DNA of 56,169 bases, from the NCBI GenBank assembly GCA_018920365.1, contig JAHLMM010000003.1, positions 1 through 56,169 on the forward strand, read 5' to 3'. Of the stretch, positions 2 through 19,151 are shown in pieces. Numbering within the stretch: the first letter of the stretch is position 1; each line of letters begins with the position of its first letter. This DNA is from Candidatus Aenigmatarchaeota archaeon. Lineage in GTDB: Archaea; Aenigmatarchaeota; Aenigmatarchaeia; CG10238-14. The position numbers and the translations under genes are program-made. A model generated the notes under the pieces. That model worked only from the letters and a program-made list of their open reading frames with translations, ran no database searches and was not told the DNA's origin.

Positions 2-3000
2 CATGGGCAGCGAGTGGATTATCACCGAAGTGTTTCAGATGATTATGGTTTCAAAGATGAAGTTAGCAGCACTTTCACTTTGCAAGAAGATGATACAGAA
101 ATTTTCATATCATCAACAACTGGTTATGAGCTTAACAGAGAAGGATTGGATCAAATTCTTCTAAGTGCACTTGTCACAGATTTGGATAGATATTCTATAC
201 CCGTAGGACAAGATGTGTCTGCTAGAATAAGAGTAACGTACAATTCAAGCGATCCAAATAGTTGGAATGATTTTAATTTACAAACAAACAGCAGCGGTTA
301 TATAAATTATTATTTGGATCCAGACTGCACATATTCAGTTGGCGTTCAGCAATGGAGAGCACAAGTTTATAATGATGTCTGCTATAAAACAACAGCAGAG
401 CAAGATTCATTCATTGTGAAAGGCAGCATTTACAATAATCTTGAGTTGCCTGATTATTTGTCATCTTACCCAACAGGCTCATCAATAGAAATAAGGTACA
501 ACACAACAAGCGATTGTACATATACAAGGGCAGATGAAGCACCATTGATAAATGTGACGCCAACAATAGAGTTAAGCTTAAACGGAGCATCATGGGAAGC
601 TTGTACACCTATAAACTCAACTTATGGCGTTTACAATTGCTCATGGAACAGCTCATTCAAACAGCCAGGATTTTGGGACATAAAATTCACAAGCTCAAAG
701 CAATACTTCAACACAAAACAAACAGTATTCCCAGATTGGTTTGAAATATACAATGCAAATCCAACAAACACAACCATACCAACAGTAACACCAACAATGG
801 GCGGATGGGGAGATGTTTACAACTATTCTGTCTATTTGACAGATTCTGATGGCGATCCTATAACATGTGTTTTGTATACATCAACAGATGATGGTAATAC
901 ATGGAGGAAACAAGGGCAGAAAACAATAGGCAGCTCTGGCTTGTGCAGTTTTGTTGTTTCAAACTTCAATTGCAACGCAACATACACAGATGTTGGCAGT
1001 GATAACTGGTTTAAATTTGAAATAACAGACGGTTATCACACACCATTCAACATTTCAAGTGAAGAAGGACCTATAATAGAAAGAAATAACATAACCATAA
1101 CGCTGCTTTCAGGCAACAACAGTGTTGTAAACAGAACTGGAAATGAATTCACAACACTTAGGGTTTTTGTAAATGATACAACAAAAGGATGGCCTGCAGG
1201 CAATGGTACATCTGGAAATGCAACTGTATATTTCAACATTACAATTGACGGTGTTTCTTACATTATAGATGGATCAAATACAACTGTTAAAGGAAATGTC
1301 ACATATAGATTCAATCCAAGCTGTTCATATGGCGTAGGCGATCAAAAGTGGTTTGCTTACAAATCAGGGTTTATAGGTGGCGATCAATGCTATAATGATG
1401 CTTCATCATCTATTTACAATTTAACAATATTTGGTAATCTTATAAATTATATTGCAATACCAAATGGAGAAAAATACAACAGAGATGAACAAAATGTTAC
1501 AATAAGAGCAAATGTAACAACAGATTGTCCATCAAATGAAGGATTAATAAATAATGCACTAGTCAACTTTACAATAATTCACATAGGCACATCAAATCAA
1601 TATTCATGTACGCTTGGCTCATTCACAAACGAAGGAAATGGTTATTATAATTGCAGTTTTGATACGACATCAAAACCAACACAATGGTACAACATAAGAA
1701 TGAACTCGTCCGGCTTCCAGTACTTTACTCCAAATAATACAATAAAGACTCAAGCATTCTTTGTGTCAACAAGACCTGTTTTAACGAATCCAACAACATC
1801 TCCATTAACAGGTGGCTGGGGTGCACCTCACACATTCAGTGTTTATGTAAGAGATGATGATAATGATGTCAACAATGTCAGTTTATGGATAAGATGTGTT
1901 GGCGGCGGTTGTACTCCAACAAACTTTTGGTTGGCTAAAACATCTTTAATTTCAGCATCATCATCTCCACAACAAGTTCAATTTGTGAAAACAGATTTTA
2001 CAGCTTTAGATATAGGCAACTGGGAATATTTCTTCAATTCAACAGATGGATTGAATTCAGCTAATACAAGCATCAACACATTTACTATAGACAAAGACAC
2101 AATAAACATAACTCTAATAGATGGAGACAATGTTGTAATAAACAGAAGCACAACACAAACAGTTACATTAAGAGTAAAAGTTTTTGACGAAGATAGGAAT
2201 GTAGCAATTTCCCCAGGCGAACCTGGTACAGGTTATTTCTATGTCACAACAGATCCAAACAATCCTAACAGCTATGTCATAGATAAAACATTATCATCAA
2301 TAGAAGGCGGCAGTTATTTGACAGACACATTCCCAACACTTTCAAGATGTACATATGGAATTGGGCCGCAAAAATGGAAGGTTGAATTTGGATCTTACGC
2401 ATACAAAACTACAAACAGTTCTGAATTTTCAATAAACATAACAACACACGAAATAGTTTTGCAAATAGTTGGACCAAACAATCAAACTTTCAGAAGAGTA
2501 ATAGATCCAATACCATTGATAGCTTATGCAAGTGATGATTGTGGTGGCTTGATACAAGCAACAACATTCTTCAAAGCATATCCAGAATATTCATGGACAA
2601 CATGCAATTCACCAACCGATAATTTGAATGGCACATACAACTGCACTTTATATTCTCCTCCAACAGCAGGTTTAACATATTATGATTTGGAATTCAACGC
2701 ATCCAAGCAATATTATAACTCATCAAATACAGCTTACAAACAAGATTCATTTGTTCTTGTCACAAACCCAGAAATAACAGCATATGCTCCAACAACATCA
2801 GATTCTTTATTACCATATGGATGGTCTGAAACATGGAATTTCACCGCATCTGTAAGAGATGTCGATCAGAATGTTTACAATTTTGAAAAATTGAACATTA
2901 GCTTGTGGATTGATTTTGGCAGCGGTTATCAGTTAATAAACAGCACTTTATGCTCATCAACAGACAATCCAAATTGCGCAAGTTGGAAGACAATAACATT

Positions 3001-6000
3001 TTTGTACAATAAATTTTCATGCGGCGATATTGGAATAAAATCATATAAATGGAATGTAACAGATCAATGGGGCTACACAAATGAAACATCATCAACATTC
3101 ACAATTGACAAAAGCGATGTAATAATAGAATTTGTTGACCAACCATCATCCATTTACAGGGCGAATTCAACAACAGGCAGATTCATATACAGAGTGTTAG
3201 ATACAGATAACAGCAGTTATGTTAAAAACACATCAACAAATACTGCAATGTGGATAACAGTTGATGGCAGCAATTATGACAATGGAAGATTTGTGCAAAT
3301 AAATTCAAGCGGTTATGCAAACTATGATTTTGATCCAAACTGCAATTATGGCTATGGAATGCAAAAATGGATAGCAGGTGTTTATGAGGACAGTTGCTAT
3401 AAAAATAAAAATTTATCATTTACACCTCAATTTGAAGTTACAGCACAGCTGAGAAACAATATCTATCTACCAAGCTACAATAGCGTTTATAATGTAACAG
3501 ATTTAATAACAATAAGATTCAATACAACAACTGAATGTCTATCTGAGGGTATAATAGCAAATGCTACACCAACTATTTCATTGAAATCTCCATTAGATTC
3601 ATGGGAAACATGTTCGCCTGTTTACAACGAATACAATGGATGGTATAATTGCACCTGGAATTCAACTCACAAAAAAGAAGGATATTGGACAATAATGCTT
3701 AATAGCACAAAGACGCCGTATTTTGCATTTAATTCATCATTATATACAAACTGGTTCTGGCTTGAAAACTTGAATTCAACATATGACAATGTCAGCTTAA
3801 CTCCAGGCATAGGAGGATGGAGCAGATTATATAATTATACAATAGACATAGATGATCCTGAAAGAGAAGATATAAATTGCAGCTTGTTCATAAGCAAAGA
3901 CAATCAGTTGACATGGGAATACAAAGGAAGTTATTTGCTCCAAAATGGTTTAGGTACATGTTTTGTAACAGTTCATGACTTTGACTGCGATGATATAGGA
4001 AAAGGCATTTACTATAAATGGCAAATCGTTAACGGAGAGATTGCAAACGCATACAACACAACTGCGTATGCTGGCCCAAATATAACAGAATCAACTGTTC
4101 AGATACAATTGCATCAAGGAAACAACACATTTGTTAACAGATCATTCCAGACAAGACCTTTGATTGTAAGAATTTACGATACTGAAAATCAAAGTTATGT
4201 TTACAACGCCAATACAAGCTTTTGGATAACTTATGATTATTATAATTATACGCTTGTAAATCAATCAAAATCAGATCTATCAGGATATGCTCTATATAGC
4301 TTTTTACCAAATTGTATGTATATACCAGGTACACAAAAATGGATAGGTGGAGTTGAAAATGACAAATGCTACACTGACATAAACTCTACAGAATATTTAG
4401 TTCACGTAAATGGTACATTATTCAATAATATCATACAACCAAACGGACAGGAATTTTTGAGAGGAAGCAATGTTACTATCAAAGTAAATGTTTCAAGCGA
4501 TTGTTCAAATGAAATAATGAATGAATCTGTTATGATCAACTTTACTAACATAAAAGACTCTACGCAATATTTATGCAATCCTATATTCAACGAAAATACA
4601 GGGCTTTACAATTGCACATTCAACACTTCATCATATGCTGCAAGATGGTGGAATGTCACAGCGTTTAGCGTCAAAACATTATACAATTTCAATTATACAA
4701 CCAAATCAAATGCGTTTTGGGTAGAGACAAAACCAGAGTTAAACAATCCAACAGTTACAGCTTCTGGTGATGGCGGTTGGGGTGAAACATATATATTCAC
4801 CGTCAATTTTACAGATGAAGATTTAGATCCAAATACATTAAGATTGTGGGTTAACAAATCAAGCGGATGGACTAATTCAAATACAACAACCATATCAGGC
4901 ATAAACCAAACAGTGACATTCATTCAAGTAAACTTGTTCAGCTCAAGCGATTATATAAATTCATTGAACAATTTGACAAAGTATTATTTCAGAACACAGG
5001 ATGAAGTCATACCAACAGAAAACGACACAGATCAGACTCAAGAACTTAATATAACATTGTATAAAGATGATGTGTACATAAATCACACTTATGGAAATTC
5101 AACTGTTGTTAACAGGACAGGCGGTAGTCTTTTCTTCAGAGTAAGAATGTGGGATACTGATAGAACACCATGGGATGATTTGCCATCAGGAAGCAGAGGT
5201 AGATTCTGGTTTACAAAGGATGGTTCAACATTTATCAACACTATAGATAAATTTGCAAACAGCAGTGGTGAAATAGCTCACTTACAGTCATTAGACTGCA
5301 CATTCCAAGTCGGACCTCAATATTGGTTTGCTGAATTATACGGTAACACACCTTACAAAGATACAAATTCAAGTATTTTCAATTGGACAATCGTTACTGT
5401 TGGTTTGACAGCTAACATTACAAATCCAGATGGTATTTCAAGATTGAGAGGAATCGATGATATTGTGTTGCGTGCAAGAGTCACAGACGATTGCGGCGGC
5501 GTGCCAAACGCAACTATTGTATTTTATGTTCCATCAGAGAATTACGAATGTAATAATGTTTATTACGAAGGCAATGGATATTACAATTGCACTATACCAT
5601 ACTCTGCAACAGCTACATGGAATACTGGATGGCATGATGTAACAGTTGATGTTTCAAAGCAATATTACAATGGAACATTTGTAGAAAAGACAAATGCATT
5701 TTATTTGGCAACAAAACCAGAAATATTGCTAACACCGCCACCAACAGCAACACCTGAGCAAGATGGAGGATGGGGAGAAAATTGGTTGTTTACAGCAATT
5801 ACACAAGATTTAGATGGCGATTATTACAACGTGTCACTATGGTTTAATTTGACAGGTAGCTGGCAGTTAGCTGATTCAACAATAGTTAGTGGTCCACAGC
5901 AAGTTGATTTTCCAGACAAAACATTTGCTTGTGAAAATATTGGTCAAAGGCAATTTATGTTCAAAGTGACAGATGTTTGGGGCTATTCAAATAATTATAC

Positions 6001-9000
6001 GTCGCCGTTTAACATTGACAAAGACGATACAACAATTGAATATGTGGCAGGCGCTGGAACACAAGTTGATAGAGAATATAATGATTATGAGCTAATAAGA
6101 GTTCAAATAAGAGATTTTGATAGAGATGACTATCTAGTCGGACCTGGTATAAATGGTTCTGTATGGATAACAACCGATGGAGTTAACTATATTTTGAGTG
6201 CAACTAACACAACTGACTCTTCAAGCTATCTAAGCTATTACTTTAATCCAAATTGTACATATAATGTTGGTATACAAAAATGGAGAGCAGGTACATACAA
6301 TGATGTTTGCTACAAAGATAACAATCCTGATTTTGGATTTACTATAGAGATAACAGGACAATTGAAAAATTATATATTGTCTCCATCATACAACACAACA
6401 TTTGCTGTCGGAAATAATGTCAACACAACATTTGAAGTGCTAGATGAATGCTCAGTTCCTGTAAACCAATCAAACGGAAAAATAGAATTTAGATCACCTT
6501 CTGGATTATATGAGACATGCTCGCCATTGGCAGAAACAGGAAACATATACAATTGCACTTGGAATACAACTTTACATCAAGGTGGTTATTGGGATATAAG
6601 ACTAAATTCATCAAAAACATATTATTATTCTAACAGCACATTGCTTGCACAGTGGTTGTATCTTTTCAACACACCACCTTATGTAGAAAACCTTTCGGTT
6701 ACACCAACAGCAGAAGGTTGGGGTAGAACATTTACATTTAGCTTGGATGTAGATGATTTGCAGAAGGATAATGTTACATGCACTTTGCTATTATCAACAA
6801 ACAACGGATTAACTTGGATGAATAAAGGCAACTCAACAGTTTATAATGGATATGGAAGATGTGAAGTTAATGTATCAACATTTGATTGTGGTGATATAGG
6901 AAATGACAACAGGTATATGTTTGAAGTTTATGACGGTACAAATACGTTTAACACAACAAACAACACAAATCTTGTGATCGAACCCAACGATGTTCAACTA
7001 TATTACATTAGTGGAAATCAAAGCTATGTAAATAGAAGTGGTTCTCAATCAACAAATTTTGTCTTGCAAGTTTATGATTTGGATAGCAACTCATACCCAT
7101 CAAATGTTAATATGTCTGTATATGTCACAGTTGATCAGTTAAGTTTTATAGAAAATTCAACGCCAAAAACAACATTCAATGGAACTTTGAATTATTCTTT
7201 CAATCCATCATGTACATTCAACAATCTTGGCTTGCAATATTGGAAAGTTGGTGCCAATAATAATATATGCTACAAAAACATAAACACAACCGAAAACTAT
7301 ACTGTTTACATAATAGGAGACATAATCAACAAATTGACAGGGCCAACAGGCGATAGCTATTTAAGAGGAGAGGAAAACGTTACATTTGCTTTGGAAGAGA
7401 TTGACGATTGCTCTGCACCTGTTGAATATGCAGATATAATTTTGAATTTGACAAGTGAGTATGGAAATGTATATGGATGCGATCCAATAACAACTATAGG
7501 CGGCGGTATTTATTATTGCGAGAAAAACACTACAGGAATGAGGGCAAGATGGTATAATGTAACTATAAACGCGAGCCAGCAATACTACAATTCAAATACA
7601 TCTTTGCATATCAATCCATTCTTTGTAAAGACAATGCCTGTTGTTCAAAATTTAACTATAACACCAGCGCAAGATTGGGGATGGGGTGAAAGATACACAT
7701 TTACAGCAAATGTGACAGATGAAGATTTAGATGATGTCATTGTAAGTTTATATTACAAACCAATAGTTTTTGACGATTGGAACCAGATCAATTTCACACT
7801 TGTTCCATCACCATTAAATACAACAGTAACATTGACATATCAAGGATTTACATGTGCAGATCAGGATTATGAACAACAATTTGAAATAACAGCTTTGGAT
7901 ACAAGATCTTACTTGACTAACAGTTCATGGGTCGAACAATGGAATAAAACATTTAATTTAACAAAGGATGATGTCATGCTTACATTGGAAGCTGGCAATG
8001 GCGATGAGGTTTGGAGAAATGGAACTGACAGTAGAAGGTTGAGCGTAAGAGTTTATGACAGCGATAAAAACACTTATCCAGGAGCAGGTTACAACGGTAT
8101 GTTCTGGGTAACAACTGATTATCTTTCATTTGATATTGGCAAACAAACAACAACAAACATTTCCAGTTACTTGAATTATTTATTCACCTCAGAAGCACCT
8201 CAACCTGAATGTGATTATTTAACAGGACCTCAAAAATGGGTAGCAGGAGTTTATGATGATGCTTGTTACAAAGACAAAAATTCAACAAATTACACTATAA
8301 TAGTCAAGTCAGAATTGAGGCCACAAATAGATTATCCATATGGTCAAGGATTTATAAGACCAAATCCAGTTCCGTTTGTTGGTAGAGTGTATGATGATTG
8401 TGGTTTAGTTTCAGGTGCTACATCGACATGGACATCCTATATAGGAATAAATGAATATGGATGCTTTAACAAAACAGAAGCAAATGGATGGTACAATTGT
8501 ACATGGGTTTCTACCAACAGGCCGTATGGTTATTATGATCTTCTGTTTACAGTAACAAAGAACTATTATGCATTAAATAGCAGCTTTAGAGATGACGCAT
8601 ACTTCTTAGGTACTTTGCCGTCATTAAGCAACCCAAGAATATTGAACAATCATTACAGAGGCGGTTGGGGCGAGACATATGATTTTGCAGTTAGAATAAC
8701 AGATTTTGATCTTAACATAAACAATGTTTCTGTGTGGAAAAGCTTTGACGGTATTAACTGGACTTTGGTTGACTCAAAAAATGTTAGTAACGCTGTCAAC
8801 CAGGATGTAATATTTTCAAAGAAATTCAATTGTAGCGACATGGGATTCAATTATTTCTATTTCACAACAGTCGATCAGTTCGGTTATTCGACAAACACGA
8901 CTGTAATGAACTTTACACTTGAATACGATAATGTAACTTTATCTGTAGGCTTGTCAAATTCAACAGTTAGAAGAATTGGAAACAATTTAGCCTTGCTAAA

Positions 9001-12000
9001 CTTTACAATATATGATTATGATTATGGAAGATATGCTCCTTTGGCTTCAGGAAAAGTCAACATTACACTAGATTATTTGAATTATTCTTACGTAATGAAT
9101 TGCACAACAGATTCAACAGGTCAATGCTATGTCTATTACAACCCTGACTGCTCTTCTCTTGCAGGCATACAGCAATGGATAGGAAAAACAGATGACATGT
9201 GCTATGAATTTGTTCAGACAAACCCAATTCAGTTGACAGTGATAGCTCAGCTAAATACATCAATACAATCACCATACAACCAGCAAATATTGAACAGAAA
9301 TCAAAATGCAAATCTTACAACGTATGTTTTTGATGAGTGCCTAGTTGCTATCAATGATTCGACTGTCAATTGGTACAATGAGACATTTTACAATATTGCA
9401 AATGGATATAGTACAATATGGCAAATACCAACTTTCTATCAATTAGGTCCAGAAACAATCTACGTTAACACAAGCAGAACATACTATGACAAAAACAGCA
9501 ATTTCACAAATGTATACATTTATGGATGGAGCGGAGTTACAACAGAAAATCCATTGAATGCTTCGAATTATCTTGCAGGATTTTCAATTAATGTGAAATG
9601 CAAAGTGACAGATCAAAACACCACAAGTGATTTGCAAGGTTACACAGTTAATTTCTACAAAAATGGCACATTCCAGGATTCGCAAATAACAAACTCAGAG
9701 GGTGAGGCTGTATGGTTGTGGCAGACTTTGGCAGAAACACCAGGATGGTATAACATAACTTGTTCTATAAATGATAACAACGTGCTTTATTACAATGCGT
9801 CGAAACCGCAAGACGAAGTTCAAGTATTGATAAAAAGACCATTGATAATTCAAACAATACAAAAAGATTCGCCGTTTGTTTATAGAAACAATACTTTTGA
9901 TCCGAATAATGTGAATATAACAGTTAAAGTTAGAGATTCCTTGGTCGGTGACGCTAATGGAGCTAATGTCACATTTTACAATTCAACAGCATTAATTGAT
10001 TATTGCTTGACAAATTCAAGCGGTATTTGTAGCATAAACTTTAACCCAAGCGAAACAGTGACGCCAAACGTTTATACAATATATATTAACGCAACCAAAA
10101 CAGGATTAGAAGATTCAGAAACAAATACAACGACAGTTGAAGTAAGAGGCAAACTTTATTTAAACATATCATCACCACAAAACAATAGTTTCTGGGCAAA
10201 AACAGATAATCTTGTTTTGTCTGCTTCAGTTGTCGATGAATCAAACCAACCCACTTCATCTAATGTAAGATGGTTTAATGAAACAGCTCTAGTTGCATCA
10301 GGAGAAAATGCAAACTGGCTTTTGCTTGAGCAGACAACTGGTAACCACACATTGACATCAAATGCAACAAGAGATTATTATGACAAAGCTGAACAAACAT
10401 TAATAATAACCGTAAGCAGTTTAGCTGATGTTCAATGGATTTATCCAGAAGACGGAAGCATAATGCCATATCCTTTACCATTTAACACAGTGTGCAGAGT
10501 TGTTGATTCAAGCACAGGTGTTGGCATAGAAAACTATTTGGTTGATTTTTGGTATAACTATACTCCGGGATACATATACAATGGCACACTGCTTACAAAT
10601 TCATCTGGTCATGCTACAAACACATTTGAGCCTGTACAAAAAGGAACTATAACATTTAGATGCAATATAACAAACGATTATGTCAAACTTTATACACCGA
10701 ACATCCATGAAGCAATAGCAGTAATAACTGTTAGAGATACAAGGCCACCACAAATACATAATCAAACCATAAACCCAATTTATGGAATTGAAGCTAACTT
10801 GAATTATACAAACATATCAGCAGTTGTGATTGACGACATAGGCGTAAGCAGTGTATTTGCTAGAATAGGCATGCCTAACGGAACATTCATGAATTTGTCA
10901 ATGACTCATATGGGTTCAAATCTTTATTCATTATTTTACTTAGCACCTATAGGCGGCATATATAATGTCACAATATTTTCAATCGATAATCCACCTGAAA
11001 ATAATATCAATAGCACATTTGCCGGATATTTCTATGTCAATGGAAAGACAGATGGCATTGTTACTCAGCCTGATGAAATTCAAATAAATGGCATAACATG
11101 GGTTAACTCAGAGTCAGCAGAAATAACAATAAACTTCACAAACATTGGACCAGCTACAGCATATGGTGTTAATTTAACATTTACAGCAGATCCTTTGAAC
11201 TCTCTAATATTCAATGAGACGATGCATCAATGTGGTGTTGTATACAATCAGAGCTCATGCATATTTGGCTTACTTGTCACAGTTCCAGCTGCAACACCGC
11301 CGTCTGTGCTAAAACTGATAACAGATGCTGTTTGGAGAAACCCTGATCAAAGTTTTGGCATAGATTCAGAAGACACAAACTTCATCATAATATCAAACAA
11401 AATCATAGACATAATTGAAGAAAATGTTACAGCAATAACACCACATGACAAGTTGACAGACATACCTAACATAAATGTAAGTTCAATAGGTAATGATTTG
11501 ATAACAGACATTGCTATAACAACAGTAGGTGGCAACATTTCAACATTATGTCCTGAATGCCAGATAATCATAGTTCCAAATGAATGGGGATTACTTGAAG
11601 CAGGCGCAAGTTTTATTTCAGATTTAAAAGTTCAAGTTCCAAGAGCTCAACCACCAGGAACATATTGGACATATATAAGGGCAGCGTCACCAGAAACAGC
11701 ACCTGATTTAATGCCTTTGTATATAACAGTTCCATTAAATGCCTCATGGCAAAGATCACCAGATAGTTTCGGCATAATATTAGCACCACCAAATACAACT
11801 GGTTATATAGGTGATATAACAACAACAAGTTTTGCAAACATAAGAATAATTTTCAACGCATACAAGCAACAGAACGCTTCACAATTATTCAATATTTATC
11901 CATCAGCTTTCAGTTTGGATAATGGTGCAGTAAGAAACGTCAGTGTCAACTATACAATTCCAGCTTCATATGTGTCAGCGCAAGGAATGTATTATGCCGA

Positions 12001-15000
12001 AATAATAATAACTAATACAACAGCCATGCCGCAAGAATACAAGACAAGCTTCTGGCTAAATGTGACAGACATACCGCCTATTATAAGCAACGTTAGCATC
12101 ATGCCTCAAACATTTGAAATGATTTATGAAAATACAAATGTCTCAGCCATAATAACAGACAATTTTGCTGTATCTTATGCATTCATAAATGTAACATTGC
12201 CAAACGGATCTTCTATAGAGCAGACTATGCAAAAGTCAGGCAACTATTATTCAGCTATTTATTCCACAAACATTCATGGCTATCAAAACATAAGCATATG
12301 TGCAAATGATACGCAATCGTTAATGGCATGCACTAATTTCATACCAGTATTGGCTTCAGGTAAAACTCAAATCAATCAATCATTCAACGTATCAAAAATA
12401 TATGTAGCCAACATAACATTATTTGAAGGCAAGCAATATGCAGTGAATGTTTCAACAAACAACATAGGAAATTCAAGAGCATTCAATGTTTCTGTCAACA
12501 TAACATCACCGCAGAATCTTTCAACAAACATTAACAGCAGCTTTTATAGTTTGATATTGAAAGAGCAGTCATACTCAGATTTAGTTTTAGTTAATGTGTC
12601 GCCTGCGGCAAAACCAGGCACATACATGCTTAACTTTAGCAATTATTGGGTTAATCTGGACAATACAACTGACGAATCTTTAAGCCAGCTAGAATTTGAA
12701 GTTTTGTCAAATCCAAAATTGAATTTATCTTCAAATGTTACTGTATATGTTCCAGACGGAACTGAAAACAATGGCACTTTGACTATTCAATCAATAGGTA
12801 ATGATGATGTTACAAACATAACATTTTCATGCTTGTCTGGAACAGTATGTCAAGATTTCAATGTTTCATTCATACCATCATTCATTGACAGGTTGAATGT
12901 ATCAGACATAGCTTATGCAAACATTTCAGTCGCAGTACCTAGACAATATCCTTTAGGCACATACAACGGAACTATACAATTGAATGCAACAAACATTTCA
13001 ATGAATGTGCCAATATATGTAATTGTACCAATGAATTTGTCTTGGACTCAATCGCCTATAGAAATATACAGAAATGTTTTAGGCGATTCTTATGGATATT
13101 ACGGCGGCATTGATTTACAGAATACAGGCAACACTCCACTGCTTTTGAAAGTTGAAAAGACAGGAAATATATCATCATATCTATCATTGACAGAATCATA
13201 CATTACAATCCCAATTGGAGCTGTCTATACAATTAAAATAAATTACACTGTGCCTAACATAGCTCAAATAAGCAACTTTACAGGTTATATAACAACAGGA
13301 AACACAACAGCAGATCAGCAAAAATCAACATTTGTCAGCTTACATGTTACACCATATTATGTTGACATAAAATATCCAACATCAACAAATCCAATAACAG
13401 GAATAACATTTGGCGACACTATATCTGCTAGAGTTAATGTCACATTCGGTCAAGTGCTTACAGATAATGTAACATTCTTTGTCAGAATTTTCAATGAATC
13501 ATTTTCACAGCCAGTTGTAGTTGATTCTGCTATTTATTCAACTTCAGATCAATTATGGATAGTCAATTTCACAGCACCTATGCTTCCAGAAAATAGGGCA
13601 TATGATTTAAATATAACAGCAAATGATACGTTTGATAATTTGATAAGAAGTGATGTAGAATATAGGTCTATAAACTATAGAGATTCAATACCACCTCAAT
13701 TGACTTTGGTAGTGCCAGCTAAAGTTCCAGCTGGCTATGTTGCAACAGTTGATGGCATAGCATATGAAGAAGGCAATTTAAGAAATGTTTCAGCTGTCAT
13801 AACATACCCAGACAACACAACACAACAAGTTTCATTTGTCTTTTTGAATAGGATTAATAATACGTATTATTATCAGTACAATATAACAAACACAACTTTA
13901 CTAGGTGTTTATACAATTAATGCAACAGCTTGTGATTATTCAAATAATTGTGGAAATGCATCATCAGAATTCCAAATATATCCTGCAGCTCTATTTCACG
14001 GTTATTCAAAAGATTATGAGCACGCAGCAGAGCCTGTAACATTTGTTAATTTCACGTTATATCAGCCTGACACAATCCAAATGTTATTCAATATAACACC
14101 AAATATGGCTAACGGTTATTATAATGCTTTGATAGACGCAAGAAGATATGATTTGCAAGCATCAATTTTCAATTCAACAGTGCTTTCAAGAAATGTTGAA
14201 ATAATAACTGATGTTTTTAACCCGATGATATTTGGTGACATACCTTCCGAAAGAGTAAGCATAGGCACATTGCAAGGACTATATGTTGAAACTGTGTTGA
14301 ATACAACAAACACAAGCATAACATTTGATTACAACGATTATATGAGCAAGACAATTTGCAAGATGAATAATGATTGCAGGCCGGCAGCATTCTTTGAAGG
14401 ATCATTAGCTTTATTCAGGTGCGATAATTGGGTAAGAAAAACAGGATGTTTAGGTTCATGGACAAGATTGACAACATCAATCAATTCTACACTACACATA
14501 GCTACTGCACAAGTATCTGGAAATATTTCAGGTGCATATGCACTAGCTCCATACATATGTGGTGATAGCACATGCGATCATGGTTATGGTGAATCAACAT
14601 TTACATGTCCAGCTGATTGTCCATTACCACCACCAGTTACACTACCACCACAAGCAGGTGGAGGAGCAGCAGGAGGTGGTGGAGGCGGCGGTGGAGCTGG
14701 AGGAGCAGGAATAGGGGAGATAACAGTACCAGGTGTACCATTCTCAATTAAATCAACTTTATTATTTGTAACTTTGAAGCCTGGTGAGGAAGAGATACAC
14801 TCAATTGAAATAACAAACAATGAAGAGAGTGAAAAGAAAGGAGAAATTAAAGTAGAAGGTTTTGCATGGGAGATGATAATGCTTGAAGAATCAAGCTTTA
14901 CAGTTGCGCCTAAATCAACCAAAGTAATCAAAGTTAAAGTGTTTGCATTACCATCAAATCAGCCAGGAATATATACAGCTGACCTTGTTACAACAATTGG

Positions 15001-16597
15001 AGACAAGCAACATAGAACACCAATCACAATAAAAGTTGATTATGGACCAGAACCATTACTTGATGTAAAAGTTGAATCATTGACAAAATCAGTTCAACCA
15101 GGACATCAAGCCAAATTCCAAGTAACAGTTTTAAACATGGGTCAAACTGCAAAAGTTGAAGATATTGTTTTGAATTATACATTAAGAAATCTCAAGACAG
15201 AAGAAGTTATTACAAGATCACAAGAAACAGTTGCAGTTGAAGATGTTTTAACATTCATTAAAACATTTGATATACCAGAAAACACACCAACAGAAAGATA
15301 TATATTAGAAGTAACAGCTTCATACTGGTATGGAAAGAAAGTTGCAAGGGCAGCAACAGCATTTGATGTTGTTTATCTTCCGGCACCATTAATAATATTG
15401 AAAGCTTTAGCAACGAGTTGGATAACTTATGCTGTTTTACTATTAATAGCTCCAGCAACCATAATTGGCTATAGAGCTTACAGATATTACACAACAATGA
15501 AGAAGATAAAAGCAAAGTACATATTCCCAGTTGATGTTAAGAAGCTACCACAACCAGGTCCAAACACAGTACTAGTTGGCAAGGTTGCCGAAACTGATAT
15601 AAACGCTTATACAGACATAAACAAACTTGTTATGCACAGCCTAGCTGCGGGTGGTACAGGTTCAGGTAAAACAGTGTCAGCTATGGCGACTGCCGAAGAA
15701 CTATTAAAGAGAGACATACCAGTAATTGTTTTCGATCCTACTGCACAATGGACTGGTTTCATAAGGCCTTGCAAGGATGAAGAAATGTTCAAGTTATATC
15801 CACAATTTGGCTTGAAGAGAGAGGATGCAAGAGGATTCAAAACAAACATAATAATAGTGAAAGATCCTAATATGAAGTTGAATTTGAAACAATACATGAA
15901 ACCAGGAGAAATAACAGTCTTTGTAATGAATAAATTGTCTATGGCTGAGATAGATACGCTGATAAGAGCATCTATACAGGAAATATTCGACATGAACTTG
16001 CCAGAATCCAAACAGCTAAAGCTATTAATGGTTTATGATGAAGTTCATAGACTACTTCCAAAATACGGCGGTAAAGGTGGCTTTGTAGCTTTAGAAAGAG
16101 GTGCAAGAGAATTTAGAAAGTGGGGTATTGGTTTATTCATGATATCTCAAGTCCTTATGGATTTCAGAGGTGCTATTAGAGCTAACATCGGAACAGAAAT
16201 ACAGTTGAGAACAAAGTATGAAGGCGATATCAACAGAGTAAAGACAAAGTATGGTGCTGATTATGCAGCTAGAATAACAAAACTAACAACAGGTACAGGT
16301 TTAGTTCAGAACCCAGAATACAATGAAGGTAAACCATGGTTCTTATCATTTAGACCGCTATTGCATGATACGCACAGATTGACAGATGAGGAGTTGGCTG
16401 AATATGACGCTACTCAACAAAAGATAAATGAAGCAGATCAAAGAATAGAGAAGTTGAAAGCAAGAAAGATTGATACATACGATGTTGAATTGGAATTGAA
16501 CATAGCAAAAGATAAAATGAAGCAAGGGATGTTCAAGATGGCTCAGACATATCTTGAATCAGTTGACAGCAGGCTAAAGGCTTTGGAAAGGAGGTAG
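2..16597 (+). CDS. Giant surface protein (5' partial): extracellular Cys/Asn-rich super-repeats + Ig/NEW3-like domains + one TM helix + C-terminal HerA/FtsK-like (DUF87-type) ATPase
   Basis: Uninterrupted ORF, 5527 aa from the GTG at 14; the frame is open to the window edge, so the start lies outside. Repeated GGWG...TDxDxD and QKWxAGVYNDxCYKD motifs; very many NxS/T sequons; TM segment ITYAVLLLIAPATIIGYRAY; Walker A GGTGSGKT; Walker B LLMVYDEVHRL; GAREFRKWGIGLFMISQ (HerA/DUF87-like). Confidence 0.9.
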   Translation, partial: HGQRVDYHRSVSDDYGFKDEVSSTFTLQEDDTEIFISSTTGYELNREGLDQILLSALVTDLDRYSIPVGQDVSARIRVTYNSSDPNSWNDFNLQTNSSGYINYYLDPDCTYSVGVQQWRAQVYNDVCYKTTAEQDSFIVKGSIYNNLELPDYLSSYPTGSSIEIRYNTTSDCTYTRADEAPLINVTPTIELSLNGASWEACTPINSTYGVYNCSWNSSFKQPGFWDIKFTSSKQYFNTKQTVFPDWFEIYNANPTNTTIPTVTPTMGGWGDVYNYSVYLTDSDGDPITCVLYTSTDDGNTWRKQGQKTIGSSGLCSFVVSNFNCNATYTDVGSDNWFKFEITDGYHTPFNISSEEGPIIERNNITITLLSGNNSVVNRTGNEFTTLRVFVNDTTKGWPAGNGTSGNATVYFNITIDGVSYIIDGSNTTVKGNVTYRFNPSCSYGVGDQKWFAYKSGFIGGDQCYNDASSSIYNLTIFGNLINYIAIPNGEKYNRDEQNVTIRANVTTDCPSNEGLINNALVNFTIIHIGTSNQYSCTLGSFTNEGNGYYNCSFDTTSKPTQWYNIRMNSSGFQYFTPNNTIKTQAFFVSTRPVLTNPTTSPLTGGWGAPHTFSVYVRDDDNDVNNVSLWIRCVGGGCTPTNFWLAKTSLISASSSPQQVQFVKTDFTALDIGNWEYFFNSTDGLNSANTSINTFTIDKDTINITLIDGDNVVINRSTTQTVTLRVKVFDEDRNVAISPGEPGTGYFYVTTDPNNPNSYVIDKTLSSIEGGSYLTDTFPTLSRCTYGIGPQKWKVEFGSYAYKTTNSSEFSINITTHEIVLQIVGPNNQTFRRVIDPIPLIAYASDDCGGLIQATTFFKAYPEYSWTTCNSPTDNLNGTYNCTLYSPPTAGLTYYDLEFNASKQYYNSSNTAYKQDSFVLVTNPEITAYAPTTSDSLLPYGWSETWNFTASVRDVDQNVYNFEKLNISLWIDFGSGYQLINSTLCSSTDNPNCASWKTITFLYNKFSCGDIGIKSYKWNVTDQWGYTNETSSTFTIDKSDVIIEFVDQPSSIYRANSTTGRFIYRVLDTDNSSYVKNTSTNTAMWITVDGSNYDNGRFVQINSSGYANYDFDPNCNYGYGMQKWIAGVYEDSCYKNKNLSFTPQFEVTAQLRNNIYLPSYNSVYNVTDLITIRFNTTTECLSEGIIANATPTISLKSPLDSWETCSPVYNEYNGWYNCTWNSTHKKEGYWTIMLNSTKTPYFAFNSSLYTNWFWLENLNSTYDNVSLTPGIGGWSRLYNYTIDIDDPEREDINCSLFISKDNQLTWEYKGSYLLQNGLGTCFVTVHDFDCDDIGKGIYYKWQIVNGEIANAYNTTAYAGPNITESTVQIQLHQGNNTFVNRSFQTRPLIVRIYDTENQSYVYNANTSFWITYDYYNYTLVNQSKSDLSGYALYSFLPNCMYIPGTQKWIGGVENDKCYTDINSTEYLVHVNGTLFNNIIQPNGQEFLRGSNVTIKVNVSSDCSNEIMNESVMINFTNIKDSTQYLCNPIFNENTGLYNCTFNTSSYAARWWNVTAFSVKTLYNFNYTTKSNAFWVETKPELNNPTVTASGDGGWGETYIFTVNFTDEDLDPNTLRLWVNKSSGWTNSNTTTISGINQTVTFIQVNLFSSSDYINSLNNLTKYYFRTQDEVIPTENDTDQTQELNITLYKDDVYINHTYGNSTVVNRTGGSLFFRVRMWDTDRTPWDDLPSGSRGRFWFTKDGSTFINTIDKFANSSGEIAHLQSLDCTFQVGPQYWFAELYGNTPYKDTNSSIFNWTIVTVGLTANITNPDGISRLRGIDDIVLRARVTDDCGGVPNATIVFYVPSENYECNNVYYEGNGYYNCTIPYSATATWNTGWHDVTVDVSKQYYNGTFVEKTNAFYLATKPEILLTPPPTATPEQDGGWGENWLFTAITQDLDGDYYNVSLWFNLTGSWQLADSTIVSGPQQVDFPDKTFACENIGQRQFMFKVTDVWGYSNNYTSPFNIDKDDTTIEYVAGAGTQVDREYNDYELIRVQIRDFDRDDYLVGPGINGSVWITTDGVNYILSATNTTDSSSYLSYYFNPNCTYNVGIQKWRAGTYNDVCYKDNNPDFGFTIEITGQLKNYILSPSYNTTFAVGNNVNTTFEVLDECSVPVNQSNGKIEFRSPSGLYETCSPLAETGNIYNCTWNTTLHQGGYWDIRLNSSKTYYYSNSTLLAQWLYLFNTPPYVENLSVTPTAEGWGRTFTFSLDVDDLQKDNVTCTLLLSTNNGLTWMNKGNSTVYNGYGRCEVNVSTFDCGDIGNDNRYMFEVYDGTNTFNTTNNTNLVIEPNDVQLYYISGNQSYVNRSGSQSTNFVLQVYDLDSNSYPSNVNMSVYVTVDQLSFIENSTPKTTFNGTLNYSFNPSCTFNNLGLQYWKVGANNNICYKNINTTENYTVYIIGDIINKLTGPTGDSYLRGEENVTFALEEIDDCSAPVEYADIILNLTSEYGNVYGCDPITTIGGGIYYCEKNTTGMRARWYNVTINASQQYYNSNTSLHINPFFVKTMPVVQNLTITPAQDWGWGERYTFTANVTDEDLDDVIVSLYYKPIVFDDWNQINFTLVPSPLNTTVTLTYQGFTCADQDYEQQFEITALDTRSYLTNSSWVEQWNKTFNLTKDDVMLTLEAGNGDEVWRNGTDSRRLSVRVYDSDKNTYPGAGYNGMFWVTTDYLSFDIGKQTTTNISSYLNYLFTSEAPQPECDYLTGPQKWVAGVYDDACYKDKNSTNYTIIVKSELRPQIDYPYGQGFIRPNPVPFVGRVYDDCGLVSGATSTWTSYIGINEYGCFNKTEANGWYNCTWVSTNRPYGYYDLLFTVTKNYYALNSSFRDDAYFLGTLPSLSNPRILNNHYRGGWGETYDFAVRITDFDLNINNVSVWKSFDGINWTLVDSKNVSNAVNQDVIFSKKFNCSDMGFNYFYFTTVDQFGYSTNTTVMNFTLEYDNVTLSVGLSNSTVRRIGNNLALLNFTIYDYDYGRYAPLASGKVNITLDYLNYSYVMNCTTDSTGQCYVYYNPDCSSLAGIQQWIGKTDDMCYEFVQTNPIQLTVIAQLNTSIQSPYNQQILNRNQNANLTTYVFDECLVAINDSTVNWYNETFYNIANGYSTIWQIPTFYQLGPETIYVNTSRTYYDKNSNFTNVYIYGWSGVTTENPLNASNYLAGFSINVKCKVTDQNTTSDLQGYTVNFYKNGTFQDSQITNSEGEAVWLWQTLAETPGWYNITCSINDNNVLYYNASKPQDEVQVLIKRPLIIQTIQKDSPFVYRNNTFDPNNVNITVKVRDSLVGDANGANVTFYNSTALIDYCLTNSSGICSINFNPSETVTPNVYTIYINATKTGLEDSETNTTTVEVRGKLYLNISSPQNNSFWAKTDNLVLSASVVDESNQPTSSNVRWFNETALVASGENANWLLLEQTTGNHTLTSNATRDYYDKAEQTLIITVSSLADVQWIYPEDGSIMPYPLPFNTVCRVVDSSTGVGIENYLVDFWYNYTPGYIYNGTLLTNSSGHATNTFEPVQKGTITFRCNITNDYVKLYTPNIHEAIAVITVRDTRPPQIHNQTINPIYGIEANLNYTNISAVVIDDIGVSSVFARIGMPNGTFMNLSMTHMGSNLYSLFYLAPIGGIYNVTIFSIDNPPENNINSTFAGYFYVNGKTDGIVTQPDEIQINGITWVNSESAEITINFTNIGPATAYGVNLTFTADPLNSLIFNETMHQCGVVYNQSSCIFGLLVTVPAATPPSVLKLITDAVWRNPDQSFGIDSEDTNFIIISNKIIDIIEENVTAITPHDKLTDIPNINVSSIGNDLITDIAITTVGGNISTLCPECQIIIVPNEWGLLEAGASFISDLKVQVPRAQPPGTYWTYIRAASPETAPDLMPLYITVPLNASWQRSPDSFGIILAPPNTTGYIGDITTTSFANIRIIFNAYKQQNASQLFNIYPSAFSLDNGAVRNVSVNYTIPASYVSAQGMYYAEIIITNTTAMPQEYKTSFWLNVTDIPPIISNVSIMPQTFEMIYENTNVSAIITDNFAVSYAFINVTLPNGSSIEQTMQKSGNYYSAIYSTNIHGYQNISICANDTQSLMACTNFIPVLASGKTQINQSFNVSKIYVANITLFEGKQYAVNVSTNNIGNSRAFNVSVNITSPQNLSTNINSSFYSLILKEQSYSDLVLVNVSPAAKPGTYMLNFSNYWVNLDNTTDESLSQLEFEVLSNPKLNLSSNVTVYVPDGTENNGTLTIQSIGNDDVTNITFSCLSGTVCQDFNVSFIPSFIDRLNVSDIAYANISVAVPRQYPLGTYNGTIQLNATNISMNVPIYVIVPMNLSWTQSPIEIYRNVLGDSYGYYGGIDLQNTGNTPLLLKVEKTGNISSYLSLTESYITIPIGAVYTIKINYTVPNIAQISNFTGYITTGNTTADQQKSTFVSLHVTPYYVDIKYPTSTNPITGITFGDTISARVNVTFGQVLTDNVTFFVRIFNESFSQPVVVDSAIYSTSDQLWIVNFTAPMLPENRAYDLNITANDTFDNLIRSDVEYRSINYRDSIPPQLTLVVPAKVPAGYVATVDGIAYEEGNLRNVSAVITYPDNTTQQVSFVFLNRINNTYYYQYNITNTTLLGVYTINATACDYSNNCGNASSEFQIYPAALFHGYSKDYEHAAEPVTFVNFTLYQPDTIQMLFNITPNMANGYYNALIDARRYDLQASIFNSTVLSRNVEIITDVFNPMIFGDIPSERVSIGTLQGLYVETVLNTTNTSITFDYNDYMSKTICKMNNDCRPAAFFEGSLALFRCDNWVRKTGCLGSWTRLTTSINSTLHIATAQVSGNISGAYALAPYICGDSTCDHGYGESTFTCPADCPLPPPVTLPPQAGGGAAGGGGGGGGAGGAGIGEITVPGVPFSIKSTLLFVTLKPGEEEIHSIEITNNEESEKKGEIKVEGFAWEMIMLEESSFTVAPKSTKVIKVKVFALPSNQPGIYTADLVTTIGDKQHRTPITIKVDYGPEPLLDVKVESLTKSVQPGHQAKFQVTVLNMGQTAKVEDIVLNYTLRNLKTEEVITRSQETVAVEDVLTFIKTFDIPENTPTERYILEVTASYWYGKKVARAATAFDVVYLPAPLIILKALATSWITYAVLLLIAPATIIGYRAYRYYTTMKKIKAKYIFPVDVKKLPQPGPNTVLVGKVAETDINAYTDINKLVMHSLAAGGTGSGKTVSAMATAEELLKRDIPVIVFDPTAQWTGFIRPCKDEEMFKLYPQFGLKREDARGFKTNIIIVKDPNMKLNLKQYMKPGEITVFVMNKLSMAEIDTLIRASIQEIFDMNLPESKQLKLLMVYDEVHRLLPKYGGKGGFVALERGAREFRKWGIGLFMISQVLMDFRGAIRANIGTEIQLRTKYEGDINRVKTKYGADYAARITKLTTGTGLVQNPEYNEGKPWFLSFRPLLHDTHRLTDEELAEYDATQQKINEADQRIEKLKARKIDTYDVELELNIAKDKMKQGMFKMAQTYLESVDSRLKALERR
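780..8750 (+). repeat. Nine diverged ~950-1010-bp protein-coding super-repeats, marked by GGWG/GWG motifs at about 800, 1811, 2816, 3812, 4772, 5765, 6712, 7674 and 8660
   Basis: Periodic GGWG-type motif followed by an acidic TDxDxD segment, an NR-(S/T)G...VWITxDG...FNPxCTYxVGxQKW..CYKD block and a DDC...YNCT...YYNS block. Confidence 0.8.
14551..14720 (+). other. Cys motif (CGDSTCDHGYGESTFTCPADCP) followed by a Pro-rich and poly-Gly hinge, inside the giant ORF
   Basis: Translation YICGDSTCDHGYGESTFTCPADCPLPPPVTLPPQAGGGAAGGGGGGGGAGGAGIGEI. Confidence 0.75.
15540..16400 (+). other. HerA/FtsK-superfamily ATPase domain within the giant ORF (Walker A at 15650-15673)
   Basis: VGKVAETDINAYTDINKLVMHSLAAGGTGSGKTVSAM; LKLLMVYDEVHRLLPKYGG; ALERGAREFRKWGIGLFMISQVLMDFRGAIRANIGTEIQLR. 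Confidence 0.85.
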
Positions 16598-16642: not shown

Positions 16643-18037
16643 ATGGCTGACCTGAATGAACTAATTGAACAGAAAAAAGAAATAGAGAATCTTCTTAAAT
16701 CTCTTGAGGATGAGTATGGCAGAGCTCAGATAAGCGATAACACTTATAATGAAATAAAAAATAAAAACAAGGCAAAACTGGCAGCTATAGAAGCAGAGAT
16801 ACAAAAGTTAGGCGGCGAACCTGTGCAGATTCAGCCAGAAGTTGAGCAGCCTGCGCAAACTCAAACTTTGCAACAACCTCAGAGCCAATCTCAACCATCA
16901 GTGCAAGTGGCTAAGACAGCAGATACAGCAAAAATTAAATCAGAAGTAATATCTGAACTCAATAAAAAAATAGAGACAGAAATAAACAAGATAAATGTTG
17001 AAATGGAAAAAATAAAGGCATTTCTTGACGCTCAAAAAGATTTGAGGGTAGCTACGGACGAAAAATTACAAAGACTGACAGAAGGAATAGGCGAGTTAAG
17101 ATCAATGATATTTCAAAAAGAAAGTGAAATTGACAAGATGAATGTTAAAGTGCAAAAAATAGAGGAGGTTTTCAATGATGTAAAGCCAGAGCAATATACA
17201 AGAGAGCTTCAAAAAAGAGATAAGGAATTAGCTAATCAAAATTTAAGGCTTGAAAAATTAGAAAAAGTCTCTTATGACATGGTTAAGGATGTTAATGAGA
17301 TCAGAAATGTATTCAAAGAAATTGGAAGTGTTGAAAATCTTGTAAATGTCAGCAAGAGAATAAATGAAAAATTTGTGAAAATGGAAAACATGTTGAGAGA
17401 TGTTGAAAAGATTTCTGAGAAAATTGAAAAATTGTTTGTAGAATTGAATAAAAAATTGGAAGAGTTTGAGGAATATAAAAATAAACAAATACAAATAGAC
17501 GGTTTGTCAAAAGACTTGCTCAAAGCTGTTGATGATATAAATGTTAAAATCGGCAAATTGGCAACAGAAGAAGAACTATATAAAATGAAAGAGTTATTTA
17601 CTTCATTCACAAAAGATTTGGAAGATGTCAAAAAATCAGTTTCTAGCGGAATACCATTTTTAGGCCCATTGCCAGAAGAGATACAGCAGTTGCAGAAGCA
17701 GAAGCAAGAAATAAGCACACTGTTGAGCAATATTGATGAACAATACAAAAACAGAGCGATAAAAGAACAAGATTACAAGAAAATCAGAGAAGCTAATTTG
17801 GAAAAACTTGCAAACATTGACAAACAAATAAGGGAAAGCATAGAAAGGATAAAAGGAGTTCAAACCCAACCAGTTGTTCAGCCTGTTATTCAAGCTCAGT
17901 CAGAACCCTTACCACAACCAACACCAGTTGAAGAAGATAAAAGTACAAAACTGCTGAATGATTTGAAAGAGTTGTATAAGAAGGGATTGATTAGTGAAAA
18001 AGCATATCAAAAAACGTCAAGAATGCTGGTGAAATAA
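16643..18037 (+). CDS. Coiled-coil protein with duplicated helical hairpins and a SHOCT-like C-terminus
   Basis: 464-aa ORF; heptad-rich centre; Pro/Gln-rich linkers; C-terminal LLNDLKELYKKGLISEKAYQK. Confidence 0.8.
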   Translation: MADLNELIEQKKEIENLLKSLEDEYGRAQISDNTYNEIKNKNKAKLAAIEAEIQKLGGEPVQIQPEVEQPAQTQTLQQPQSQSQPSVQVAKTADTAKIKSEVISELNKKIETEINKINVEMEKIKAFLDAQKDLRVATDEKLQRLTEGIGELRSMIFQKESEIDKMNVKVQKIEEVFNDVKPEQYTRELQKRDKELANQNLRLEKLEKVSYDMVKDVNEIRNVFKEIGSVENLVNVSKRINEKFVKMENMLRDVEKISEKIEKLFVELNKKLEEFEEYKNKQIQIDGLSKDLLKAVDDINVKIGKLATEEELYKMKELFTSFTKDLEDVKKSVSSGIPFLGPLPEEIQQLQKQKQEISTLLSNIDEQYKNRAIKEQDYKKIREANLEKLANIDKQIRESIERIKGVQTQPVVQPVIQAQSEPLPQPTPVEEDKSTKLLNDLKELYKKGLISEKAYQKTSRMLVK

Positions 18038-19151
18038 GTGAAATTAAATCCAAAAATATGGAAAAGACTTTTTGATTTTGCACCAGACATTTATTACATA
18101 CATGATGATAAAGGTACTTTTGTTTATGCTAACAGAATGGCTGAAAAAATCACTGGTTTATCGTCAAAAAAGTTGACATCAAAAAAATTCATAGAGTTAG
18201 GAATTTTCCCTGATTATGAGGTTGCAAAGATAGGTTGTCTTATCAAGTCTGTTTTGAATGGAAAGCAAATAGGCCCTGTTAATGTTGATGTAAAGAATAC
18301 CAAAACTGGAAAGATAACAACAGTTGAAGTTATTGCTAAAAGATGCTATTGTAACATTAATAAAAAATTTTGTCTTGGGGGTTGCGCGAGATGTTACTAA
18401 TAAAGTTAATGCAGAAAAAAAGTTAAAAGATTCTATAAGAAAATTAAAAGAATTAAATAAAGAAAAAAACATGTTTCTTTCGATTGCAGCGCATGAATTA
18501 AAAACACCAATGGCTGCCATAAAAGGTTTTACACAATTACTTAATAACGACGAATTAATTAAAGATAAAGAAAAAAGAAGTAAATATTTGAAAATAATTG
18601 AAAATGAAGTTGATAGACTGTCATTGCTTGTCACAGATTTACTTGATTTAACAAGAATAGATTTGGGAACTATTAAATTAATAATAGAAGATACAAATGT
18701 TTCTGAAATTTTGGACAGGGTTGAAAAAGAAATGCAGCAATTGGCTAAAGAGAAAAATTTACAGTTAAGTTATGAATGCAAAAAAGAGATAAAATTAAAA
18801 ACAGACAAAGAAAAGCTTTACGAAATATTAATTAATCTTGTAAGTAATGCAATAAAATATACAGAAAAAGGTTTTGTCAAGATTGTTGCCGAAAAAGAAG
18901 GGAAACTGATCAAATTTTCTGTAATTGATACAGGAATAGGCATAGACAAAAAATATCGTAAGAAAATATTTGAAAGGTTTTTCCAAATAGATCCAACATA
19001 TACAAGAGAAAACAAAGGCTATGGGTTGGGATTATCTGTTTGCAAAGAACTTGTTAACAAAATGGGAGGAAAAATATGGTTTGATAGCGAAGTTGGCAAA
19101 GGCACAACTTTTTATTTCACCTTACCAATAAATAGTAGAGTGAAAAGATGA
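18038..19151 (+). pseudogene. PAS-domain sensor histidine kinase, split by an apparent frameshift (PAS part 18038-18400; HisKA/HATPase part in another frame to 19151)
   Basis: PAS part FAPDIYYIHDDKGTFVYANRMAEKITGLSSKKL; second frame GVARDVTNKVNAEKKL...SIAAHELKTPMAAIKGF...NLVSNAIKYTEKG...DTGIGIDKKYRKKIFERF...GYGLGLSVCKELVNKMGG. Confidence 0.85.

Follow-up and report, generated by a model that had tools for sequence, protein, structure and literature searches.

Organisation of the locus

The window analysed here is the whole of one contig (C13; 56,169 bp) of a metagenome-derived archaeal genome, which comprises 752 kb in 19 contigs and is 94% complete. The features of the giant gene at its left end and of the gene that follows are listed below.

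2..16597 (+): 3' portion (5,531 aa) of a giant gene, almost certainly of the SPEARE family; the 5' end is lost at the contig edge
2..9553 (+): tandem repeats of ~327 aa, a cut copy at the beginning being followed by nine near-complete ones from nt 770
9554..15394 (+): membrane-proximal region of diverged Ig-like/NEW3 type, from Pfam, repeat mapping and alignment with SVXNc_0300
15395..15490 (+): single C-terminal transmembrane (TM) helix, aa 5132-5163
15497..16384 (+): HerA/DUF87-type ATPase domain, on the cytoplasmic side in the predicted topology
15650..15673 (+): Walker A, GGTGSGKT, aa 5217
16022..16048 (+): Walker B, LLMVYDEVH, aa 5341; DEVHRLL is invariant in 26 relatives
16124..16150 (+): GIGLFMISQ segment with invariant SQ, after an invariant REFRKWG
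16385..16594 (+): C-terminal helical/coiled-coil tail in the AlphaFold model
16643..18037 (+): downstream neighbour, a 464-aa coiled-coil protein conserved beside SPEARE genes

The frame at 2..16597 (+) runs through 5,531 stop-free codons. Its opening at the contig edge means that the 5' end is missing and that the GTG at position 14 is not its real start. The N-terminal 4,432 residues of the giant are found on contig C18 of this genome, in an ORF which runs off that contig. Two sister species of the same genus, whose genomes we take to be those of the Aenigmatarchaeota isolates SKW179 and DRTY-7_1_bin_34, have intact ORFs of 11,248 and 11,259 aa with no interruption, and the window protein aligns with residues 5723-11248 of the former at 93.8% identity. 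By difference from the sister length, ~1,290 residues within the repeat region are unassembled between C18 and C13, and the full-length gene of the window species would have about 11,250 codons. The first-pass annotation had described one ORF of more than 5,500 aa; the single giant frame is upheld by the uninterrupted window sequence and the sister ORFs, but the true gene is twice the length seen there.

When the window is compared with its sister, the amino acid and synonymous codon differences are, respectively, 6.8% and 27.9% across the repeats, 6.5% and 25.6% across the membrane-proximal part, 0% and 28.6% for the TM helix, and 0.5% and 22.7% for the ATPase part. Amino acid change is thus far below synonymous change, which indicates that the frame is translated and the motor kept; judged from these substitutions, stalk and motor alike are under purifying selection, strong in the ATPase. 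An assembly artefact, in which a surface-protein gene and an ATPase gene were wrongly joined, might be suspected for a repetitive gene from a metagenome assembly with a contig break inside it. However, purifying selection is continuous across the TM helix, and dozens of independent genomes, the closed chromosomes of cultured nanohaloarchaea among them, have the identical junction; relatives with the same fusion rule out two separate genes for practical purposes. A sigma-70/terminator scan was uninformative, the organism being archaeal.

Ectodomain

The ~327-residue repeat, mapped by tiling and a repeat HMM (whole-protein self-BLAST was uninformative), is present in ~20 copies in the full protein and about ten in the window. 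An AlphaFold model of the unit, based on a 48-copy alignment, is all-beta with a pLDDT of 93, and each unit can be read as three Ig-like beta-sandwich domains. Foldseek matches the model to Ig-like and macroglobulin-like proteins and to adhesin extender domains (6xi3, 5irb, 4p99); against a viral library it returned generic Ig-like proteins only. The giant bacterial RTX and ice-binding adhesins represented by these three structures likewise consist of long chains of Ig-like extender domains, but, unlike the window protein, have no covalent cytoplasmic ATPase.

The membrane-proximal region contains a NEW3 Pfam match (nt ~12425-12637), in line with the NEW3-like juxtamembrane domains noted earlier, and a Cys-rich CGDSTCDHGYGE segment near nt 14573; its juxtamembrane part is alignable with SVXNc_0300. 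Concerning the N-terminal part, Pfam gives NEW3 and DUF11 matches, together with MG2 and filamin-like ones that stay under their cut-offs; no enzyme domain was seen. No beta-propeller or protease domain was detected by Pfam in the scanned parts of the window-genus giant; nor was laminin-G found in the pieces scanned, with ~1,290 residues outside the scan and a domain that Pfam may miss. The outer part is sequon-rich, as claimed: the first 5,100 residues contain 255 NxS/T sequons, where ~96 are expected from composition.

In the window genus, the N-terminus of the full protein carries two hydrophobic segments (~residues 14-40 and 52-70). Should both remain membrane-embedded, the ectodomain may be held at both ends rather than forming a free stalk. 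The giant stalk of the first-pass annotation therefore stands as an ectodomain of Ig-like repeats, but its freedom is in doubt. The ectodomain would comprise ~10,700 residues and roughly 100 Ig-like domains. Ig domains are ~4 nm long in other proteins, so that such a chain could reach some 400 nm if straight.

TM helix and ATPase

The TM helix, earlier placed at ~15400-15490, lies at nt 15395-15490, and Walker A, Walker B and the SQ segment are all where they had been located. Pfam identifies DUF87 (E=3e-9) and HerA_C (1e-6), both passing the cut-off, with weak matches to TraG and TrwB, and a PDB sequence search with the window protein retrieves HerA chains. The single-chain AlphaFold model of the TM and ATPase part has a mean pLDDT of 89; its best Foldseek matches for the ATPase are HerA structures (8woc, 8wiv, 4d2i; E ~1e-12), followed by FtsK and TcpA. 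In an alignment of 26 relatives the P-loop residues, DPT.QWTGF, DEVHRLL, REFRKWG (R) and SQV are invariant. The proposed HerA/FtsK relationship is borne out by Pfam, PDB and Foldseek together, the catalytic residues by the alignment, and the terminal coiled coil by the modelled tail. By sequence, the domain is a DUF87-core HerA/FtsK superfamily ATPase with all core motifs intact.

With the HerA translocases (Sulfolobus 4d2i, Thermococcus 9x1m, Sir2-HerA 8wiv) it shares the DUF87 RecA core, Walker A/B, R, SQ and overall fold, whereas it is membrane-tethered and joined to a giant ectodomain. The HAS barrel is not evident in the model, which has only short strands between the TM helix and the P-loop, and NurA was not recognised nearby, where the neighbours are the coiled-coil gene and a kinase gene; the protein is not HerA in the strict sense of a HAS barrel and a NurA partner. 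The cytoplasmic part was also considered as a restriction endonuclease, of which no domain was found, and as a component of a defence system; the PADLOC matches were to HerA-type ATPases only.

Membership of the SPEARE family

SPEARE proteins were described as up to 8,553 aa long, with a C-terminal TM helix, a cytoplasmic part termed restriction-enzyme-like and, by definition, at least one laminin-G domain, and similar cytoplasmic sequences were already seen in Aenigmarchaeota (Hamm 2019, PMC6642349). La Cono 2023 reassigned the cytoplasmic part to VirB4/TraG-like ATPases, proposed a secretion straw and disputed other domains that Hamm had named for the original SPEAREs (PMC10266531). Since none of these further domains appeared in our Pfam scans and they are rejected in the original members, we do not treat them as defining. 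The SPEARE of Nha. antarcticus was seen by proteomics (81 peptides), its cytoplasmic and external parts in different size fractions (PMC6642349), so the two parts may be cleaved apart. A literature search for links between HerA and DPANN, NEW3 or Aenigmatarchaeota found nothing relevant.

SVXNc_0300 was recovered with its exact length of 9,409 aa, and BNXNv_0298 with 8,880 aa. The last ~610 residues of the window protein match SVXNc_0300 in BLASTP (36% over 617 aa, E=6e-121), and the SG9 and BNXNv giants match with E=3e-137; membership was thus tested by direct homology. The sister proteins (11,248/11,259 aa) are very long and mostly extracytoplasmic, with adhesion-type Ig-like repeats, a C-terminal TM helix and then a domain which is cytoplasmic in the predicted topology and homologous to the conserved one of SPEAREs. 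On these sequence grounds the window gene almost certainly encodes a SPEARE-family adhesin-ATPase. The fusion of ectodomain, TM helix, HerA-type ATPase and coiled coil was correctly recognised in the first-pass annotation and is conserved in many archaea; its implied novelty does not hold, as this is the published SPEARE architecture (PMC6642349, PMC10266531).

The nanohaloarchaeal SPEAREs (Nha. antarcticus NAR1_1133, SVXNc_0300, BNXNv_0298 and that of Nanopetramus SG9) share with the window protein the giant adhesion-type ectodomain, C-terminal TM helix, homologous cytoplasmic ATPase, coiled-coil tail and a coiled-coil gene nearby. In contrast to them, the window genus has the N-terminal TM helices and the ~327-aa triple-Ig repeat, and no beta-propeller, protease or laminin-G was detected in the parts scanned; no short ATPase paralogue adjoins the window giant, and the protein falls in a separate subfamily.

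Distribution and phylogeny

A scan of GTDB genomes for the same fusion, a search the first-pass annotation had proposed for DPANN genomes, found 319 loci. The best 80 of the 319 are mostly from Aenigmatarchaeota; among the rest are loci of Nanohaloarchaeota, Micrarchaeota, Woesearchaeota, Pacearchaeota, Altiarchaeota, Jingweiarchaeum and Hydrothermarchaeum profundi. Matches recorded under 'Halanaerobiaceae' and 'Heimdallarchaeota' lie on 3-4 kb contigs, are probably misbinned and were set aside. SPEARE genes are carried by 42/107 Aenigmatarchaeota genomes, a minority, so they are not needed for host contact in general. The Hydrothermarchaeum profundi copy (10,835 aa), from a genus outside DPANN according to NCBI, is on a 1.9-Mb contig (L110 / G119:C9); the 23 genomes of that phylum yield no other copy, so that transfer or misassembly has to be kept in mind. 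The largest ORFs seen in the family have 12,145 aa (stop-to-stop) and 12,055 aa. The latter, from Jingweiarchaeum (L182/L181, G122:C23), begins, within residues 1-85, with a winged-helix-like stretch that precedes its TM helix, the start codon being uncertain. At the start of the giant gene in the window genus lies an overlapping, separate HTH gene; a regulatory link through these winged-helix/HTH elements is possible.

The tree was built from 102 ATPase domains with one soluble HerA outgroup on a very long branch; it is read without a resolved root and leaves monophyly against cellular HerAs undecided. The group with the window protein has 44 rows (support 93/91), and the group with the published SPEAREs has 40 (99/99); some rows lie outside both. 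The second group includes another SPEARE of the window genome, a complete protein of 2,210 aa (G000:C11, L006 7345-13977 (-)) that starts with a hydrophobic signal and is likewise accompanied by a coiled-coil neighbour. On this tree there are two SPEARE subfamilies, with the window protein outside the published clade.

Neighbouring genes

The 464-aa partner has no TM helix or signal peptide and ends in a short helical KGLISEKAY motif. Such a protein is among the first two downstream genes at 58/63 distinct loci (first in 45, second in 13), and the same search matched 1/167 other ORFs in SPEARE loci; similarity may be inflated by coiled-coil composition, of which position is independent. TM helices are lacking in 97/98 partners. 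Judged from sequence and position, the partner would be a cytoplasmic coiled-coil protein and the only near-constant SPEARE neighbour.

Between the giant and the partner gene, nanohaloarchaea have a short SPEARE paralogue that shares the TM helix and ATPase. SVXNc_0299 (L206 4339-6210 (-)) is such a protein, with a signal peptide, an Ig-like part, a TM helix and an ATPase with DUF87/HerA_C; it had been described as VirB4 with PF03135 (PMC10266531), a match that our Pfam scan did not reproduce. At some other loci of the subfamily with the published SPEAREs the intervening short protein has a signal peptide and TM helix and no ATPase.

Also, ParA/MinD-like ATPase genes (GKGGVGKTT-type start) are found near several SPEARE operons (L045, L052, L054). 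A PAS-histidine kinase gene of the window (18038-19151 (+)) is split by a frameshift into ORFs of 120 and 275 aa; in the same place, the sister G003 has one intact kinase ORF of 371 aa. A second very large surface-type protein of the window (40226-50245 (+), 3,339 aa) has no HerA domain and contains a PQQ/ACSF4-type beta-propeller near residues 2590-2880.

Proposed function and alternatives

The reading that we favour, at a probability of roughly 0.45, is a contact-site adhesin whose HerA-type ring moves a substrate across the membrane. The ectodomain would be exported, span to another cell and hold it. The ATPase domains would form a ring beneath the membrane, gathered by the coiled-coil partner; six giant chains need not be required, as the short paralogue of nanohaloarchaea could complete the ring. 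ATP hydrolysis would then drive DNA or protein, inward or outward, through the membrane at the contact site. That the ATPase moves a substrate at cell contacts is proposed by analogy with what ATPases of this superfamily are known to do, and secretion at host contact is a role already suggested for SPEAREs (PMC10266531). In its favour are the homology to SPEAREs, the conserved motor with its HerA-type fold, the adhesin-like Ig units, the coiled-coil neighbour, the short nanohaloarchaeal paralogue and the proteomic detection in Nha. antarcticus. Counting against it are the HAS barrel that the model does not show, the empty searches for VirB4 N-terminal and VirB6-type domains in the window genome, the different size fractions of the two parts in Nha. 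antarcticus, and the presence of SPEARE genes in only 42/107 Aenigmatarchaeota genomes.

The gene is mostly adhesin-like, its only near-constant neighbour is a cytoplasmic coiled-coil protein, and the N-terminal helices of the window genus could anchor both ends; these features would also suit an adhesin without cargo, in which ATP hydrolysis would serve to gather, tension, retract or release the adhesin and the coiled-coil protein would be the cytoplasmic link. We consider this less probable, though it is the strongest competitor: the HerA/FtsK ATPases with an established function are polymer pumps, no adhesin retractor is known among them, and we know of no precedent for a folded Ig chain being retracted through a TM-anchored ring. 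HerA enzymes translocate DNA, which counts in favour of an uptake machine resembling the Ced system of archaea, by which host DNA would be brought in to supply nucleotides. CedD is the best NCBIfam match by E-value (E=1.5e-6, far below its cut-off), and uptake and degradation of DNA were part of the speculation of Hamm 2019 (PMC6642349); however, the CedD match is limited to 43 residues of the P-loop region and a nuclease was not recognised adjacent to the giant gene, and we regard uptake as unlikely.

The type IV secretion 'straw', in which effectors would pass into the host through secretion by a VirB4/TraG-like ATPase, has the published argument of La Cono 2023 (PMC10266531), the ATPase superfamily common to VirB4, TraG and TraD, and the weak TraG and TrwB matches on its side. 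However, the best fold matches are HerA and not VirB4, and the neighbour of SVXNc_0300 carries DUF87/HerA_C without PF03135. In the window genome (94% complete) neither PF03135 (VirB4 N-domain; control positive in Caulobacter) nor PF04610 (TrbL/VirB6; controls positive) gave a match, although divergent homologues of the latter could be missed; T2SSE-type pilus ATPases are present. The missing VirB4 N-terminal and VirB6 domains argue against the label, and we judge this the least probable of the functional readings. Somewhat above it, at the same doubtful level as DNA uptake, we place a reading in which the subfamily of the window protein forms an ATP-driven surface machine of its own kind: its giant Ig chain would be fixed in the membrane at both ends, powered by a HerA ring of giant and, where present, short subunits and gated by the dedicated coiled-coil protein, and would actively extend, tension or retract at cell contacts.

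Significance

New here are the two subfamilies, the near-constant coiled-coil neighbour, the Hydrothermarchaeum copy, members of more than 12,000 aa and the lack of a detectable VirB4 N-terminal or VirB6 domain. The published 'type IV secretion VirB4' label is better read as HerA-type, with a putative function. The 319 loci, spread over several DPANN phyla, Altiarchaeota and a single Hydrothermarchaeum genome, show that fusions of a giant adhesin to an ATPase are widespread, and the near-constant coiled-coil partner offers experimenters a small soluble handle on them. The family bears on the means by which DPANN archaea keep hold of a host and exploit it.
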